Shown one piece after another: positions 27,561 to 38,109 of a stretch of 64,000 bases of DNA. This DNA is from Gemmatimonadales bacterium. Its GTDB lineage: Bacteria > Gemmatimonadota > Gemmatimonadetes > Longimicrobiales > Gaopeijiaceae. The stretch spans positions 1 to 64,000 of the forward strand of contig REBS01000135.1 in NCBI GenBank assembly GCA_007692605.1, read 5' to 3'. A program made the position numbers and the translations under genes. The number at the start of each line of letters is the position of its first letter. Position 1 is the first letter of the stretch. The notes under the pieces were generated by a model, which worked only from the letters and a program-made list of their open reading frames with translations, made no database searches and was not told the DNA's origin.

Positions 27561-28694
27561 TCAGAGATCGGGGGCGCCGCGTCGAGGGGCAGAGAGCAGT
27601 TCGGCCAGATCGACCGCGATCCCGTCGAGCCGAAGAATCCCTTCCGGCGTGAGTCGAATGCGTCCCGCCCCCCACTCAACCCAACCGGCCCTCCGCCATG
27701 CCCGGAGCCTCGGCTCGTCTCTGCCGAGTCCGAGGGGAATTCTCATTCCCTCCCGCGTCGGCAGCCGAGACCAGATGCGCTCCAATCGGACCTCGGCTGG
27801 CGAGAGGATCTCTCCGCCGGCGCCAGGCTCCAGCCCTCGGTTCAGCCGATCCCGGTAGTGCGTCCACGCAGACACATTCCAGCTACGTCGAGGGTTGCGG
27901 AAGCTCCGGGCCCCCGGCCCGAGTCCCAGGATCGGCCAGCGTCGCTGGATCGCCGTCGCCATCGACGAGACCGCTCCGGGCAGCGCCAGATTGACCACAT
28001 CGGTGGACTCGAACCCCAGGTCCGACGCCCGGTCACGAAGCGCCCGCCAGGCATGTGCGAGGCGCTCACCCGAAGCGGAATCTTCCTCTGCTCCCTCGTA
28101 GAACGAAAGGTGCGAGACACCCGACCCCTGCAGTCGATCCAAAAGTTCGAAAAGCGCCGGGAGGGTCTCATCTCCGGGACGGAAAATCAGATCGGCGGCC
28201 AGCACAGGGGGATCGAGCTCGGCGATGTTCTCGAGCAGGGAGACTCTCTCGTCACTCCATCCCCCCGGCCTCGCCGTGGGGTCGGCACGAAGGCAGATGC
28301 GGGTGACGCCACCCTCCATCCAATCCCCCACGGTGGACCGGGGGTCGGCGGCGACTCCCCCCTCCCATCCCGGCTCCACCTCGACCGTCCACTCGCCCAC
28401 GCGGAGCTCGGGGGCCTCCAGAAGCTCGCGTACCAGTCGGGGAAGCGCCCGGCCGAGCGACGCGGGGGCCACGCCTCCAATCAGGAGTGAACTCGGTTCA
28501 GGGCTCACCAGGATGCCCCGCGCCGAACGGAGCGCGCACTCCAGCCCCAGGAGCCGAGCCCACTCGGCAGACGCCCCCTCCCCACCCAACTCTGCCGGTC
28601 GGACCGCTCCCGGTACCTCGAGATACAGATGTCGATAGGTCCCGGGAGCCACTCCGAAACTCTCGGCGCCCCCGACCTCGAGTCCGGTGCTCAC
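27561..28694 (-). CDS. HemW-like protein lacking the radical-SAM cysteines
   Basis: Over 377 residues this aligns by eye with HemW/HemN-like proteins: LYLEVPG at the position of LYVHIPF, LLIGGVAPASLGRALPRLV, VSHLSFYEG, LGLGPGARSF, GGEILSPAEVRLERI, and the C-terminal RLTPEGILRLDGIA. The CxxxCxxC that binds the 4Fe-4S cluster is replaced by A30, A34 and G37, and the GGGTP motif reads GGVAP. It therefore should not do radical-SAM chemistry; a haem-binding or chaperone role is possible. It lies next to hrcA, as true hemW genes often do. GTG 28694 overlaps the dprA stop. Confidence 0.8.
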   Translation of the reverse strand: MSTGLEVGGAESFGVAPGTYRHLYLEVPGAVRPAELGGEGASAEWARLLGLECALRSARGILVSPEPSSLLIGGVAPASLGRALPRLVRELLEAPELRVGEWTVEVEPGWEGGVAADPRSTVGDWMEGGVTRICLRADPTARPGGWSDERVSLLENIAELDPPVLAADLIFRPGDETLPALFELLDRLQGSGVSHLSFYEGAEEDSASGERLAHAWRALRDRASDLGFESTDVVNLALPGAVSSMATAIQRRWPILGLGPGARSFRNPRRSWNVSAWTHYRDRLNRGLEPGAGGEILSPAEVRLERIWSRLPTREGMRIPLGLGRDEPRLRAWRRAGWVEWGAGRIRLTPEGILRLDGIAVDLAELLSAPRRGAPDL

Positions 28695-29851
28695 CGCGCT
28701 GCCGATGTATCCACGCGCACCCACCCCTCGGGCTCCCGCCGAAGCCGTCCCTCGACCTCGAGTCGGGTGAGCGCCGCCAGTGTTCGCGACGCCGGGAGCC
28801 CGGACCGATCCAGGATCGCCTCGAGGGAAAGAGGCTCCAGCCCCACGAGGTCTCCCAGGCGCTCCTCGATCGGGAGCGTTCTCAGCGCCGGGCTGGACCG
28901 GCTCACCCTTCGCGCCGCCTCCAGAAGCTCGGGGGACACCTCTTCGAGTTCGAGGGCAGCCCATGGAACGCATTCCATGATCTCATCGGTCGAGGTCACG
29001 ATACAGCCGAGCCGCTTGATGAGGTCATGGGTGCCTCGGGTCTGCTCCCACTCGACCGAGCCGGGGATCGCCATGACCTCGCGTCCCAGATCGAGCGCGT
29101 GGTCGACCGTGATGAGAGCGCCACTCCGACGCCCGGCCTCGACCACCACGACCCCCCAGGAGAGTGCAGCGATGATCCGGTTCCGCCGCGGGAAGTGGTA
29201 GGGCCGTGCCTTCTCGCCCGGGGGGAACTCGCTCAGAAGGAGCCCCTTTCGAGCCACGGCCCGAAAGAGTCCGGCGTTCGCCACCGGGTAGGCGCGGTCA
29301 GGCCCCCTCGCCAGCACCGCGACCGTGCTGCCCGGTCCCTTGAGCGCGCCCTTGTGCGCCGCACCGTCGATCCCGAGCGCCATCCCGCTCACCACCCCCA
29401 TCCCCCCCGCCGAAAGCTCGGCAGAGAGACGCTCCGCCGTGCGCCGGCCCGTCGCGGTCGCCTTCCGGCTGCCCACGATCGCGACCAGGGGCCTGCGAAG
29501 GATCCCGAAATCGCCGTAGCTGAAGAGCACCGGCGGAGGGTCGTACAGGTGATGCAACGCCCGAGGATAGTCGGGATCGAGGTATCCGGTGATTCGAAAT
29601 CCGTCTCGCCGACACCACGCTCGGATCGCGCGGGCCTCGTCGAGGAGTCGCCCGGGAGTCGAGATCGCCCCCCTGGTTTCGGAACGCCCCGCCTGCGTGA
29701 CCGCGTCAGGGTGCCGCCAGACCTCGCGCGCCGACCCCCACCGCAGCAGAAGCCGGATCACCCCCAGGTCCCCGACCCCCGGAAGGATCCGCAGGGCCAG
29801 GAGGGCTTCCTCCTCGGACGCCTCGCTCAGAGGGGATCGGCGCCCCACCAC
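28691..29851 (-). CDS. dprA: DNA-processing protein DprA
   Basis: Binds incoming single-stranded DNA and loads RecA during natural transformation. The 386 residues have a SAM-like N-terminus (LLALRILPGVGDLG) and the Rossmann core with VAIVGSRKATATGRRTAE, SGMALGIDGAAHKGAL, FPRRNRIIAALSWGVVVVEA and AIPGS. A C-terminal winged helix (DLVGLEPLSLEAILDRSGLPASRTLAAL) completes it. The start is GTG 29851, overlapping obg by 25 bases; a CTG nearer the obg stop cannot be excluded. Confidence 0.94.
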   Translation of the reverse strand: MVGRRSPLSEASEEEALLALRILPGVGDLGVIRLLLRWGSAREVWRHPDAVTQAGRSETRGAISTPGRLLDEARAIRAWCRRDGFRITGYLDPDYPRALHHLYDPPPVLFSYGDFGILRRPLVAIVGSRKATATGRRTAERLSAELSAGGMGVVSGMALGIDGAAHKGALKGPGSTVAVLARGPDRAYPVANAGLFRAVARKGLLLSEFPPGEKARPYHFPRRNRIIAALSWGVVVVEAGRRSGALITVDHALDLGREVMAIPGSVEWEQTRGTHDLIKRLGCIVTSTDEIMECVPWAALELEEVSPELLEAARRVSRSSPALRTLPIEERLGDLVGLEPLSLEAILDRSGLPASRTLAALTRLEVEGRLRREPEGWVRVDTSAAR

Positions 29852-30951
29852 TCGTCCTCGTCCTCGGGGTCAGCGGAATCCCCCGGCGCCTCGCCAGTCG
29901 CCGCGGACTGGGGCTGATCCGCCGCGTCGGCCGCCTCTCGCGTGCGGCTCACCGAAGACCCTTCGCGATCGCGGGTCTCGACCACGATCTTCCACAGTCC
30001 CTCCTGAAGAGCGTCAAGCCCGCTGCGGGAAACCGACGAGATCGCAAAGACGCCCCAAGCCTCGGCCGCCTCGAGCTCGGGCGGAGATTCATCCGGCCCC
30101 AGTAGATCCACCTTGGTCAGCACCAGACAGTGGGGCCGGTCTGCGAGCTCCGGCGAATACTGCCGCAACTCCCTGCGGAGGCGCTCGTAGGTCTCCAGGG
30201 GATCGGGCTCGGTCACCGGGACCAGGATCGCCAGGGTTCGCGTGCGCTCGATATGCCGAAGAAACTGGTGACCCAGGCCCTTGCCCTCGTGCGCGCCCTC
30301 GATGATCCCGGGGATATCGGCGAGCACAAAGGACCGAAACCCGGACAGGGTCACGACCCCCAGGTTCGGAGAGAGGGTCGTGAAGGGATAATCGGCGACC
30401 TTCGGCTTCGCCGCCGAAAGGGCCGAGATGAGGGTCGACTTTCCCGCGTTCGGTTCGCCCACGAGGCCCACATCGGCCATGAGCTTCAGGGTGAGGCGCA
30501 CGGTGCGTTCTTCGCCCTCCCCCCCGGGTTCCCACGTTCGCGGAGCCTGGTTCGTGGCGCTCGTGAAGTGGATGTTCCCGCGGCCCCCGCGGCCTCCGCG
30601 GGCTGCCACGAAACGCTCACCATCTTCCAGGAGTTCTCCGAGATACTCCCCGGAATCGGCATCGTGCACCTCGGTCCCCGGAGGCACCTTGAGGACGAGA
30701 TTCTCGCCCCCCCGTCCCGTCCGGCTCTTTCCCTGTCCGTGCTGACCCCGTTCGGCCCGGTACTCGGCCCGGTACCGGAAATCCATGAGGGTCGAGAGCT
30801 GCTCGTCGACCTCGAGGATCACACTTCCACCCGCTCCCCCGTCCCCACCCGCAGGGCCTCCCCGGGGCACGAAGGACTCCCGCCGGAATGCGTCCGAACC
30901 GGACCCTCCGACTCCTCCGCGGACCTTGATGGTCACCTCGTCAACGAACAT
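29827..30951 (-). CDS. obg: GTPase Obg
   Basis: Essential ribosome-assembly GTPase acting on the large subunit. ATG 30951 has a GAAGGGA site and begins MFVDEVTIKVRGG as in the family. The Gly-rich OBG domain covers residues 1-158 and the G domain follows with the P-loop GEPNAGKS at 165-172. Further G motifs are DIPGIIEGAHEGKGLG, LTKVDLL and ISSVS. The acidic C-terminal tail of about 50 residues (DPEDEDEW) is variable in the family. The longer upstream frame overlaps the asparaginase fusion and is rejected. Confidence 0.96.
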   Translation of the reverse strand: MFVDEVTIKVRGGVGGSGSDAFRRESFVPRGGPAGGDGGAGGSVILEVDEQLSTLMDFRYRAEYRAERGQHGQGKSRTGRGGENLVLKVPPGTEVHDADSGEYLGELLEDGERFVAARGGRGGRGNIHFTSATNQAPRTWEPGGEGEERTVRLTLKLMADVGLVGEPNAGKSTLISALSAAKPKVADYPFTTLSPNLGVVTLSGFRSFVLADIPGIIEGAHEGKGLGHQFLRHIERTRTLAILVPVTEPDPLETYERLRRELRQYSPELADRPHCLVLTKVDLLGPDESPPELEAAEAWGVFAISSVSRSGLDALQEGLWKIVVETRDREGSSVSRTREAADAADQPQSAATGEAPGDSADPEDEDEWWGADPL

Positions 30952-30964
30952 GGTGTTTCCCTTC

Positions 30965-32677
30965 TCATTGGATGTATTCCCGCGCATCGCTATCCGATGC
31001 GTCGGATTGATTCCCGACTCGGTACCTTGACGCCACCGATCTCCAGACCTCGAACGCGCCGCGACCGACTCCCTCGTCGATTCCCTCGATCGCCAGGTGG
31101 AGGGCCGCCTCCACCTCGGCGGGCCGGCAACCGACCCGGAGCGCTCCTCGCAGGTGGGAGTATAGCTGCGGCCCGACCTCCTGAACGGCGAGGACCGCCA
31201 CGACGCATAACTCGCGGGTCGTCGTGGCAAGCCCCGGCCGCCCCAGCACCTTTCCGTACCCCTCTTCGACCATCCATCGATCCATCGCGGGATGAAGGTG
31301 GCCGATATTCTCGCGCAGCCCCTCGTATGCGCTCCCGTAGACCTCCCGGCACAACCGCTCCCCTCGGGCCTTCCAAAGCTCGCGGTCTTCCCCGGACTCC
31401 CCTGTCCGCACAGCGCCGGGGTCCAGCGCGCGCCACCGAGCGAATCCGTTCAGCGCCCGCGGGAACCCCACGAAGAGGTGCGCCTGCAAAAGACACTCCT
31501 CGACCTCGCGGTCCATCTCGAGGCCCGCGGCGACCAAAAGCACCCTGCGGATCCGCTCATCGTCGCCCGCGGCGAGCGCCGAACTCAGCGATACCAGCAC
31601 CCGGACCGAGGGGGAAAGCACCCCATCGGCCCGGGGCCCGGATTCGTCGTCGCCTACCCCGGTGGCCCCCACCCGCCGGAGTTCGAGATCGGGCTCCAGT
31701 TGGGCGGCCGGCTCTCCCCGGGTATTACGAACCCGGGCGGGCTTCCATCGCTCCAGGCGACTCCATGCCTCGATGTCCAGGAGCTCGAGCTGATCCAGGA
31801 TGGCGAGAAGGGCCACCTCGGCCGCCCGCTTCGCACCGTCCTCGACCGTGAGCGCGATCCCGAGGCCCCGTCCCCGAACCCCCGCGCAATAGACGCCTTC
31901 GGCGCCGACCTTGGCCACCACGAGCCCCCGGGTGGCCTCGATCAGTTCGGTGCACAGGCGACCGGTCCCCGCCACCATCCGGGGATGCTTCGTCATCGCG
32001 CCGAGTACCGAGGCCGGACCCGGATCTCCGGCGTCGGCCGCCTGTACGAAGGCACCCATGGCGCGGGCGATCGCCTCGAGAGGCACCGCGAAGCAGACCA
32101 CCCCGCACCCGTCGACCCCTTCCAGGAGCCGGGCGCGCGGGATCCCGGTCCATCGGGCGATCTCGTCGGCCATTCGCTCCTGCAGGGGATGTCCGGCAGC
32201 ATGGTACCCGCGGGGATCCCACCCCCGATGGCGCACGAGTGCCAGCATTCCGGCATGCTTTCCCGAACAGTTGTTGTGGATCCGGCCGGGTTCGCCCCCG
32301 TCCCGCCAGAGCGTCGCGGCGGCACCCTCGGCCATGGGGGGGTGCGCCCCGCAGGCGAGATCTCCACTGTCGAACCCCGCGCGCAACAGGAGCCGCTCGG
32401 CGGTCCTGACGTGCTCGGCCTCTCCATTGTGGGAGCCGCAGGCCAGCGCCAGCTCCGTCGGCTGAATCCCCAGCGCCTCGACGACTCCGTCCTCGACGAG
32501 CGGAAGCGCCTGAAAGGGCTTCGCAGCCGAACGCATGAAGGTGATTCTCGCCACCTCGCCGCACTCCGCCACCCGTCGCCCCCCGGCCTCCACCACCGCC
32601 GCGTGGACTCGGTGTCGGGACTCCTCGATCGAGCCCCGCCGCAGGATCACAATGCCTGCCGCCCCCTCTGCCGTCAT
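30965..32677 (-). CDS. L-asparaginase (rhizobial ReAV type) fused to carboxymuconolactone-decarboxylase-like region
   Basis: Residues 1 to about 335 are a class-3 asparaginase that hydrolyses asparagine to aspartate and ammonia. The ReAV catalytic set is present two positions later: S50 and K53 (SAAK), S82 (CGSHNGE), K256, and the zinc site C137, K140, C191. Residues 350-555 resemble two tandem carboxymuconolactone decarboxylase/AhpD-type helical units (LSPSVRVLVSLSSALAAGDD ... and TTRELCVVAVLAVQEVG ... YSHLRGALRVGC). They have no redox CxxC. One continuous frame links both halves. ATG 32677 fits the family start. The role of the second half is unknown. Confidence 0.85.
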   Translation of the reverse strand: MTAEGAAGIVILRRGSIEESRHRVHAAVVEAGGRRVAECGEVARITFMRSAAKPFQALPLVEDGVVEALGIQPTELALACGSHNGEAEHVRTAERLLLRAGFDSGDLACGAHPPMAEGAAATLWRDGGEPGRIHNNCSGKHAGMLALVRHRGWDPRGYHAAGHPLQERMADEIARWTGIPRARLLEGVDGCGVVCFAVPLEAIARAMGAFVQAADAGDPGPASVLGAMTKHPRMVAGTGRLCTELIEATRGLVVAKVGAEGVYCAGVRGRGLGIALTVEDGAKRAAEVALLAILDQLELLDIEAWSRLERWKPARVRNTRGEPAAQLEPDLELRRVGATGVGDDESGPRADGVLSPSVRVLVSLSSALAAGDDERIRRVLLVAAGLEMDREVEECLLQAHLFVGFPRALNGFARWRALDPGAVRTGESGEDRELWKARGERLCREVYGSAYEGLRENIGHLHPAMDRWMVEEGYGKVLGRPGLATTTRELCVVAVLAVQEVGPQLYSHLRGALRVGCRPAEVEAALHLAIEGIDEGVGRGAFEVWRSVASRYRVGNQSDASDSDAREYIQ

Positions 32678-32768: not shown

Positions 32769-33632
32769 TCACCCGGACCACAGCCCCGGAAGCTGCGGAA
32801 GATTCGACCAGAGCAGCCGGATCCCGACGACAAGCATGAGAATCCCGAAGGCCCTTCGCAGGTGCCGAACGGGCAGGGCCTGGTTGATCCGCGTGCCGAG
32901 GGGCGCCAGGAGAACCGCGCCCGGGATCATCGCCAGCGCGAGGGGAACGGCCACGTAGCCGACCGTACCGCCGGGCATCCCTTCCACTCCCCAACCGGCG
33001 GCGGCATACGAAAGGATTCCCGCCGGCGCCGCGAAGGCGACGATCCCGATCGACGCAGCCGCCACACGCTTGAGTTCGAGTCCGACCCAGTTCAGGAGGA
33101 TCGGGATCGCCACGATCCCTCCGCCGATCCCCAGCAGCGCCGACAGCAGTCCCACCCCGGCCCCTCCGACCACTGCCGCCCCTTTCGAGACGCCACTGCC
33201 CGCTTCGCGGTTCAGCGTCGCAGAGCTCCCGCCATCGGAGTGAAGCAGCCGGAGGCAGGAGACGAGAAGGACGATCGCGAATCCGACCCGGAGCAGCGGC
33301 CCCGGCATCGCGACCGCGAGGAGGGCCCCGACGATCGCGGCGCCCCCGGCCGGGACGCCCAGGGGAAGGACCACATCCCAGTCGAGTGTGCCCTGGCGAC
33401 GGTAGGACAGGAAACCCGACACGGCCGTGGGAAGGATGACCGCAAGAGAGGTGGCATGAGCCAGCGCGGTCTGGTGCTCCGACGCCACCACGAGCCCCGA
33501 CCATTCGGGCATCGCCATGAGAAGGTAGAAGAAGGGCACCATCACGATGCCTCCCCCGATCCCGAGAAGCCCCGACAGGACCCCGACGAGCGCTCCCATC
33601 GCGACGGCGAGCAGGAGCGCCAGGAGGCTCAT
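32769..33632 (-). CDS. TauE/SafE family membrane permease
   Basis: Integral inner-membrane protein, 287 residues and about eight hydrophobic segments, likely exporting a small organic or inorganic anion. Two inverted-repeat halves each start with the family motif: GVLSGLLGIGGGIVMVP near residues 17-33 and GLLSALLGIGGGIVAIP near 162-178. The TauE/SafE family exports sulfite, sulfoacetate and similar compounds, but the substrate cannot be deduced. It lies between the asparaginase fusion and the ctpA-type protease with gaps of 91 and 48 bases. Confidence 0.9.
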   Translation of the reverse strand: MSLLALLLAVAMGALVGVLSGLLGIGGGIVMVPFFYLLMAMPEWSGLVVASEHQTALAHATSLAVILPTAVSGFLSYRRQGTLDWDVVLPLGVPAGGAAIVGALLAVAMPGPLLRVGFAIVLLVSCLRLLHSDGGSSATLNREAGSGVSKGAAVVGGAGVGLLSALLGIGGGIVAIPILLNWVGLELKRVAAASIGIVAFAAPAGILSYAAAGWGVEGMPGGTVGYVAVPLALAMIPGAVLLAPLGTRINQALPVRHLRRAFGILMLVVGIRLLWSNLPQLPGLWSG

Positions 33633-36119: not shown

Positions 36120-37439
36120 TCATTCCCCCTCGTAGTACTCGAGCCCCAGGTGGGTCAGGGGCTCCTCGCCACCCAGCCAGCGAAGCGTGTTCTTCAGCTT
36201 CTTGTGCTGGATGAAGAGGTCGTGCTCGGGATAGAGGCCCGCGGGCGTCTGCGGGCTCTTGAAGTAGAACGACAGCCATTCCTGGATCCCGCTCTGCCCG
36301 GAACGCTTGGCCAGGTCCAGGAAGAGCGCCAGGTCGAGGATGATCGGGGCGGCCAGGATCGAGTCCCGACAGAGGAAATCGACCTTGATCTGCATCTTGT
36401 AGCCCATCCACCCCACGATATCGATGTTGTCCCACCCCTCCTTGTTGTCGCCGCGCGGGGGGTAGTAGTTGATTCGCACCTTGTGATAGAGGTCCTTGTA
36501 GAGATCGGGGTACTTTTCGGGCTGCAGGATGTGCTCGAGCACGCTCAGCTTCGACTCCTCCTTCGTCTTGAAGGAGTCCGGGTCGTCGAGGACCGCCCCA
36601 TCGCGGTTGCCCAGGATGTTCGTCGAGAACCAGCCCTCGACGCCCAGCATGCGGGCCTTGAATCCCGGTGCCAGGATGGTCTTCATCATCGTCTGGCCCG
36701 TCTTGAAATCCTTTCCTGCGAGGGGCACGCCCCGCTCGATGGCGGCCTCTTCCAGCGCCGGAATGTCAGCCGAGAGGTTCGGCGCGCCGTTGGCGTACGG
36801 GACCCCCTCCATGATCGCCGCATACGCGTAGAGCATCGACGGAGCGATCGCCGGGTCGTTGTCGCGCATTCCCTGTTCGAAGGCCTCGAGCGTCTCGTGG
36901 ACCGCACCCGTGCGCAGGAAGATCTCGGTGCTCCCACACCAGACCATCACCAGGCGTTCACACCCGTTCTCCTCCTTGAAGCGGCGGAGGTCCTCGCGCA
37001 ACTGCCGGGCGAGTTCGAACTTGTTCTCGCCCTTCTTCACGTTCGGACCATCGAGTCGCCGGACGTACTCCTTGTCGAACACCGCCGGCATCGGCTTGAC
37101 CGACCGCAGGAAGTCCTCCATCGGGTCCAGGTGGTGGCGTTCGAGGACGCCGGCGTTCAACGCACTCTCGTATCCATCGTCAGGGATCGGGTCCCATGTG
37201 CCGAAGACAAGATCATCGAGCTCGGAGAGCGAAACGAAATCCTTGATGAGTGGCGTCCGGTCGTCGGTGCGCTTGCCCAGTCGGATCGTGTTCAACTGGG
37301 TCAGCGAACCGATGGGCTTCGCGAGGCCACGCCGGGCGGCCTCGACCCCCGCGACCACTGTGGTCGCGACGGCGCCGAATCCGGGGAGAAGGATGCCGAG
37401 GCGGCCGGTGGCCGGTTTAATCTCTGGTCGATCGCTCAC
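36120..37439 (-). CDS. ino1: inositol-1-phosphate (myo-inositol-3-phosphate) synthase
   Basis: Converts glucose-6-phosphate to inositol phosphate with bound NAD. The 439 residues show the N-terminal Rossmann motif LLPGFGAVATT (about 17-27), DFKTGQTMMKT, GNRDGAVLDDPDSFKTKEESK-like lysine-rich active-site loop, and VDFLCRDSILAAPIILDL. The layout matches the bacterial Ino1 seen in Bacteroidetes and related groups. It starts with GTG inside the end of the CDP-alcohol phosphotransferase gene (23-base overlap), which strongly suggests joint function in making an inositol phospholipid. Confidence 0.94.
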   Translation of the reverse strand: MSDRPEIKPATGRLGILLPGFGAVATTVVAGVEAARRGLAKPIGSLTQLNTIRLGKRTDDRTPLIKDFVSLSELDDLVFGTWDPIPDDGYESALNAGVLERHHLDPMEDFLRSVKPMPAVFDKEYVRRLDGPNVKKGENKFELARQLREDLRRFKEENGCERLVMVWCGSTEIFLRTGAVHETLEAFEQGMRDNDPAIAPSMLYAYAAIMEGVPYANGAPNLSADIPALEEAAIERGVPLAGKDFKTGQTMMKTILAPGFKARMLGVEGWFSTNILGNRDGAVLDDPDSFKTKEESKLSVLEHILQPEKYPDLYKDLYHKVRINYYPPRGDNKEGWDNIDIVGWMGYKMQIKVDFLCRDSILAAPIILDLALFLDLAKRSGQSGIQEWLSFYFKSPQTPAGLYPEHDLFIQHKKLKNTLRWLGGEEPLTHLGLEYYEGE

Positions 37440-38109
37440 TGATTGACTCCGTTCGCTCGATGTTGGAGGGCGGGGCCTGTGCCTCGTCGAGAGGCACGCC
37501 CGCCGCGTTTAGATAGACCCAGACGATTCGCTGGATCGCTGTAAGCACCGTGGTGATCGCCAGAATGACCAGGACCACCTTGAGTACGAGCCCGTCCCAC
37601 ATGAGCCCGAAGAAGAGGGATCCCCCCCCGAGGAGCGCCACACGCTCCGCCCGCTGCATGAACCCCACGCTGCAGTCGAGACCCAGTGCCTCGGCGCGGG
37701 CGCGTGTATAACTCACCATGACCGACCCGCCCATCGCCAGGGCGATCACGTAGATCATCCAGGCGTCGGCGAGTTCACGCCCATACTGGTTGTAGAGCGA
37801 GATCAGTCCGATGAAGACCACGATCTCGCTCATCCGGTCCAGCGTCGAGTCGTAGAACGACCCGAATTTCGACGCCAGCCCACTTTCGCGCGCCACCCGA
37901 CCGTCGAAAATGTCGACGAGCCCCCCGAGGAGCACGAAGAATCCCGCCCACCGCACGTGATCCATGTGGTAGAGGAGCCCCGCGAACACCGTCACCAGAA
38001 ACCCGAAACTGGTGAGGGCATTGGGGTGAACGCCCCATCGCACCAGAGCCCGGGTCACCGGTTCGATGATCCGGTAGACCGGGCCGCGGAGGTCCTTCAG
38101 GGATGCCAT
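37417..38109 (-). CDS. CDP-alcohol phosphatidyltransferase, candidate phosphatidylinositol-phosphate synthase
   Basis: Transfers a CDP-activated lipid head to an alcohol acceptor in the inner membrane. The family signature is exact: D66, D69-G70, A73-R74, G83, D87 and D91. Five or six hydrophobic segments cover most of the 230 residues. Because ino1 overlaps its end, the acceptor is probably inositol phosphate, giving phosphatidylinositol phosphate. By sequence alone it could equally be a PgsA-like enzyme. No matching phosphatase gene is adjacent. Confidence 0.85.
   Translation of the reverse strand: MASLKDLRGPVYRIIEPVTRALVRWGVHPNALTSFGFLVTVFAGLLYHMDHVRWAGFFVLLGGLVDIFDGRVARESGLASKFGSFYDSTLDRMSEIVVFIGLISLYNQYGRELADAWMIYVIALAMGGSVMVSYTRARAEALGLDCSVGFMQRAERVALLGGGSLFFGLMWDGLVLKVVLVILAITTVLTAIQRIVWVYLNAAGVPLDEAQAPPSNIERTESISERSTRD

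Follow-up and report, generated by a model that had tools for sequence, protein, structure and literature searches.

The 570-residue protein considered here is encoded by a read-through fusion of two neighbouring genes, in which a class-3 asparaginase is followed, after a linker, by a duplicated carboxymuconolactone-decarboxylase (CMD) module, hereafter the C module. The gene lies in the window, i.e., the whole stretch of 64,000 nucleotides analysed, from a Gemmatimonadota assembly of 3.5 Mb in 188 contigs. As a whole, the explanation that a fusion of neighbours by read-through joined a class-3 asparaginase and a non-redox dualCMD as two domains on a flexible linker is considered very probable.

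The first-pass annotation had described an asparaginase and a CMD-like region in one frame and knew of no such fusion. The reading frame is open throughout, and a domain search returned both PF06089 and PF02627. No description of an asparaginase-CMD fusion, or of the C module joined to RdgB/HAM1 (see below), was found in a search of open-licence papers, and the words fusion and operon are absent from a survey of bacterial asparaginases (PMC9500103).

Table 1. Coordinates of the fusion gene, its parts and adjoining genes in the window, with related loci of the Bacteroidota phylum
Feature	Position	Strand	Remarks
Fusion gene, 570 aa	30965..32677	-	ATG at 32677, stop 30965-30967; uninterrupted ORF
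Class-3 (ReAIV/ReAV-type) L-asparaginase domain, residues 11-328	31694..32647	-	PF06089, PDB 8cly/7os3 matches
Linker, residues 329-357	31607..31693	-	Between both domains
Unit 1 of the C module (degenerate CMD), residues 358-418	31424..31606	-	Profile match, model helices, conservation
C module unit 2, residues 432-553, gamma-CMD/MTH234-like	31019..31384	-	PF02627, 2af7 profile, Foldseek
obg/cgtA GTPase	29827..30951	-	Start 13 nt past fusion stop; next gene in block
TauE/SafE-family permease	32769..33632	-	Upstream of fusion
HAM1/RdgB-type NTP pyrophosphatase and C module, fused	L130-L134, L136, L138, L139		
HAM1 and C module, separate genes	L146 6629-7899; L151 6593-7848		Overlap of a few bases

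Domains of the fusion protein

The asparaginase domain matched PF06089 (Asparaginase_II) with 372.6 bits (E 1.9e-111; curated cut-off 25). Its class-3 site is formed by the Ser-Lys pairs S50/K53 and S82/K256 and by the Cys-Lys-Cys zinc site C137/K140/C191, corresponding to S48/K51, S80/K263 and C135/K138/C189 of ReAV (PMC8602277). The full ReAV-type catalytic and zinc set claimed at first reading is therefore present, and all seven residues, together with R49 and D189, are shared without exception by the 72 Gemmatimonadota homologues. The ReAV-type label itself fits as far as these residues are concerned, but the score to ReAIV (PDB 8cly; PMC10917881) was higher (207 bits, E 6.2e-60) than that to ReAV (PDB 7os3; 181 bits, E 4.3e-52). 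Judging from the conserved residues, the domain would be a zinc-containing enzyme that converts L-asparagine to aspartate and ammonia via an acyl-Ser50 intermediate. Elsewhere in the same genome, matches to asparaginase families were detected (one of class 1, two of class 2), as were two further CMD matches, so that the fusion is not the sole candidate of either family.

The C-terminal half matched PF02627 (CMD) in two stretches, the best at residues 465-529 (47.5 bits, E 1.8e-12; cut-off 23). A profile made from an alignment of 20 C modules matched 2af7 (E 2.7e-23) and 4g9q (E 6e-12). The match to 2af7 came in two swapped pieces, profile positions 86-173 aligning with residues 3-90 and positions 42-76 with residues 88-122, and the order of the units was swapped against 4g9q as well. 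Unit 1, which corresponds to residues 198-259 of 4g9q and to the tail of 2af7, retains E394, Q398, G404 and P406 and is without the Glu/His pair. From this distribution of motifs, the module appears to be a duplicated CMD that has undergone complementary degeneration, the tail motif having been kept by unit 1 and the head motif by unit 2. Pfam and the alignment to 4g9q both show two CMD signatures in one chain, one of them degenerate, which is the mark of a dualCMD. The AlphaFold2 model of the module (five sequences) was all helical, with a pLDDT of 80 and a pTM of 0.79 obtained from a shallow alignment, since the structure predictions were built from the window and related-locus sequences only; its top Foldseek matches were 4g9q (TMq 0.69) and 2af7 (TMt ~0.87).

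Within unit 2, E489, Q504 and H508 are invariant in 80 of 80 C modules (67 from Gemmatimonadota and 13 from the Bacteroidota phylum), a set common to the fused, separate and HAM1-linked forms. The spacing of 19 residues between E489 and H508 equals that of the Glu and His at positions 36 and 55 of PA0269 (PMC3141380). CxxC is absent from every Gemmatimonadota C module and from the core CMD region of the sequences of the Bacteroidota phylum; where the motif was seen, it lies outside that core, either within the HAM1 portion of a fused protein or, in one other protein, close to the N-terminus. A peroxidase role of the AhpD type was rejected on account of the missing CxxC, and gamma-CMD proteins, which are without this motif, have been set apart from AhpD as a family of their own (PMC3141380). 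The two CMD/AhpD units without a CxxC pair that were described at first reading are thus both there, but active-site-type residues are confined to the second. The module would be a short dualCMD with a degenerate unit 1 and with Glu489-Gln504-His508 in unit 2, and probably performs non-redox acid/base chemistry on some small molecule, as an enzyme of the gamma-CMD/"dualCMD" type rather than a peroxidase or a mere scaffold.

In a comparison of the window with its congener G001, dN/dS was 0.83 for the linker versus 0.16 for the asparaginase and 0.24 for the C module. The ratios indicate purifying selection on both halves and not on the linker, a pattern that fits two selected domains joined by a free linker and is a poor fit with a sequencing error. 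The full-length model likewise consists of two well-folded blocks and the linker, in which residues 339-351 are predicted to be disordered (pLDDT below 50), and the polypeptide would accordingly be expected to comprise two independently folded domains with a flexible connection. In-frame GTG codons within the linker (residues 336 and 353) could possibly provide an internal start, and hence some separate C protein.

Origin of the fusion in Gemmatimonadota

When the same fusion was sought in other genomes, a single fused ORF was found in three species of the genus (that of the window and both of the other congeners searched, G001, which is 81% identical, and G002, ~60%), in two loci of another lineage (L032 and L033) and in G213, a genome that is more distant. 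In most relatives, both halves are adjacent genes in unchanged order. In the nearest families (f1-f3), the downstream gene starts between about -10 and +8 nt relative to the upstream stop codon, commonly with an ATG at -7 or a GTG or ATG at -3, while up to ~120 nt precede the conserved C domain in other families. The 72 distinct asparaginase loci comprised 59 with separate genes, 6 fused and 7 without a C module; those counted as separate include L128 (genome G021), in which a 53-residue remnant after the asparaginase apparently reflects decay of the C module in place.

The fused state requires three changes on the asparaginase tree. Forcing the best-supported fused groups, those of the genus and of L032/L033, together costs 18.4 log-likelihood units, and this constraint is modestly rejected (p-AU 0.037, just modestly below 0.05). 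The changes on the tree and the constraint test together make at least two independent fusions likely; a third perhaps took place in G213, which sits on a long branch and is of unsure placement.

Among 59 close genomes, ~34 carry the asparaginase and C module together, ~13 the asparaginase only (some of them fragments) and 4 the C module only, by our reading; 4 others have neither half, and 4 are unclear or have the halves apart. Neither these counts nor those of the 72 loci rest on simple gene calling, which missed genes of the pair in L094, L108 and L119. Either half can be lost without loss of the other.

The pair belongs to a conserved block that includes an S41 protease, a TauE or EamA permease, the asparaginase, the C module, obg, dprA, a HemW-like gene, hrcA, dnaJ and prmA. 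The gene called next after the pair is obg in 28 of 35 loci, and the surviving half stays beside obg where the other has been lost (the C module in L120-L122, the asparaginase in L116-L118). Since the pair sits inside a longer conserved block and its halves have been lost independently, their adjacency is partly inherited synteny, and as evidence of a shared pathway it is weak.

Several other features of the block were observed. In other families, the TauE/SafE permease is replaced or accompanied by an EamA-family permease, or is absent; the EamA gene immediately precedes the asparaginase in L100 (5672-6604), L109 (8163-9071), L112 (7917-9002) and L114 (2-826). In the window, the gene at the HemW position between dprA and hrcA (27561-28973, reverse strand) has no Pfam match, no visible CxxxCxxC near its start and a weak match to a radical-SAM model (E 0.16), and may encode a HemW-like protein that has lost its iron-sulfur site. 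Genes for myo-inositol-1-phosphate synthase and then a CDP-alcohol phosphatidyltransferase (36120-38109, reverse strand), likely an inositol-lipid pair, are found in the block of many relatives. A DUF2064 gene occurs near the position of the pair in L119 (8438-9115) and in L121 (5487-6416), the latter having lost the asparaginase.

A second fusion partner and the role of the C module

Among 198 genomes sampled from the Bacteroidota phylum, 16 had a C-like match over both units. In 8 of the 10 loci inspected, a single ORF of 408-475 codons carries a HAM1/RdgB-like sequence followed by the C module, as verified by Pfam in L133 (Ham1p_like and CMD), and overlapping separate genes also occur (Table 1). 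The remaining C genes of this phylum stand alone beside unrelated neighbours, e.g., TPR proteins or proline dehydrogenase. The tandem module was not found in comparable samples of the two phyla to which an Actinomycetota and an Alphaproteobacteria genome belong, which yielded single-unit CMDs only.

An asparagine- or beta-aspartyl-linked pathway, as suggested in the first-pass annotation, would make the fusion a dedicated bifunctional enzyme whose C module acts on the asparaginase product or on a relative of its substrate. This would agree with the adjacency of the two genes across the phylum, with the repeated formation of the fusion and with the fused pair kept in G213 (L114) though obg no longer adjoins it. 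However, each half occurs without the other in several genomes, and none of 32 class-3 asparaginase loci from other phyla (Paenibacillus, Alphaproteobacteria, Bacteroidota and Actinomycetota) lies within 5 kb of such a CMD. Aspartate decarboxylation, moreover, normally relies on PLP or a pyruvoyl group and not on CMD chemistry. The fusion or coupling of the same module to RdgB/HAM1 argues against a specific asparagine pathway, so that the suggestion is left unsupported and appears improbable. That two unrelated upstream partners are found in two phyla, each both overlapping and fused, and that RdgB/HAM1 is a house-cleaning enzyme, would suit a module that clears a toxic by-product (metabolite-damage control) and was attached separately to two housekeeping hydrolases. 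Yet the number of partners is small, joining to an upstream gene could simply be a consequence of overlapping gene ends, and the stand-alone C genes keep other company; we regard such a function as rather unlikely.

The C module might alternatively be non-catalytic and set the size or stability of the asparaginase oligomer, a structural role also raised at first reading. Homotrimers have been reported for the dualCMDs 4g9q and 2q0t and hexamers for canonical CMDs (PMC5615479), ReAV forms dimers (PMC8602277), and an effect on oligomer state is indeed plausible. A purely structural role, on the other hand, is disfavoured by the invariant polar residues of unit 2 in all forms of the module, by the existence of stand-alone C genes and by the retention of all catalytic residues in asparaginase genes that have no C module, and we consider it distinctly doubtful. 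An artefact of assembly or sequencing, in which a frameshift joins two real genes, might be suspected as all fused loci appear to come from metagenome assemblies and relatives have two overlapping genes, the very arrangement that had been named as evidence against the fusion. Such relatives were found, but they show how the fusion arose rather than an artefact, as three species of the genus retain the ORF; the linker is independently open in these and in the two loci of another lineage, and remains in frame while evolving freely. An artefact is thus most improbable.

Under the preferred reading, in which read-through of neighbouring genes joined two independent domains, the main effect of the fusion would be a 1:1 ratio of the two activities and the joining of a probable asparaginase dimer to a probable dualCMD trimer, with whatever functional benefit this may confer. 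Given that dualCMDs are trimers and ReAV a dimer, a larger assembly of the full-length protein is the natural prediction by analogy. A bolder extension, which is speculative and on balance unlikely, holds that the short permuted dualCMDs of the Gemmatimonadota/Bacteroidota group are a family of non-redox enzymes repeatedly fused to unrelated housekeeping hydrolases, and that in the asparaginase version the dimeric and trimeric domains would build a defined hexamer or cage.

Comparison with known systems

The gene provides a clear case of overlapping-gene fusion that has probably occurred more than once, and relatives still show the genes unfused. It further draws attention to a dualCMD family that is uncharacterised and whose chemistry can be tested through the invariant Glu-Gln-His set. 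As a natural protein in which a domain that is probably dimeric is joined to one that is probably trimeric, it may be of interest to protein engineers. The known mechanism of either family is unchanged by the finding.

With ReAIV and ReAV of Rhizobium etli, the protein shares the PF06089 domain and the seven catalytic and zinc residues; these two, however, are stand-alone enzymes (PDB chains of 341 and 373 residues), whereas a CMD module of ~200 residues is added here. Unit 2 resembles the MTH234-type gamma-CMD 2af7 over its residues 3-90, including the QLxSHxRGALNxG motif. In contrast, 2af7 is a single unit of 125 aa, and its tail motif (ExxxQ...GxP) stands ahead in the C module, inside the degenerate unit 1, in permuted order. 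The dualCMDs (4g9q, 2q0t and Trichomonas TvCMD1) likewise have two CMD units per chain, 4g9q being aligned over 215 columns, but the C module is shorter (~205 aa), has swapped units in the profile alignment and is joined to an asparaginase. AhpD (1gu9) and PA0269 share its fold class and the separation of Glu and His, whereas AhpD peroxidase chemistry would not be expected of a module without CxxC. Membership in PcaC was rejected, as the TIGR02425 score (38.8 bits) lies far under the equivalog cut-off (155.7), and the score against the PcaDC/PcaCD fusions (NF051488) was similarly low (36 vs 390 bits). These fusions resemble the present one in principle, as CMD domains joined to a hydrolase, but their partner is an enol-lactonase from the same pathway. 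The protein thus combines two known families in a domain architecture that is new, but it is not a new kind of system.
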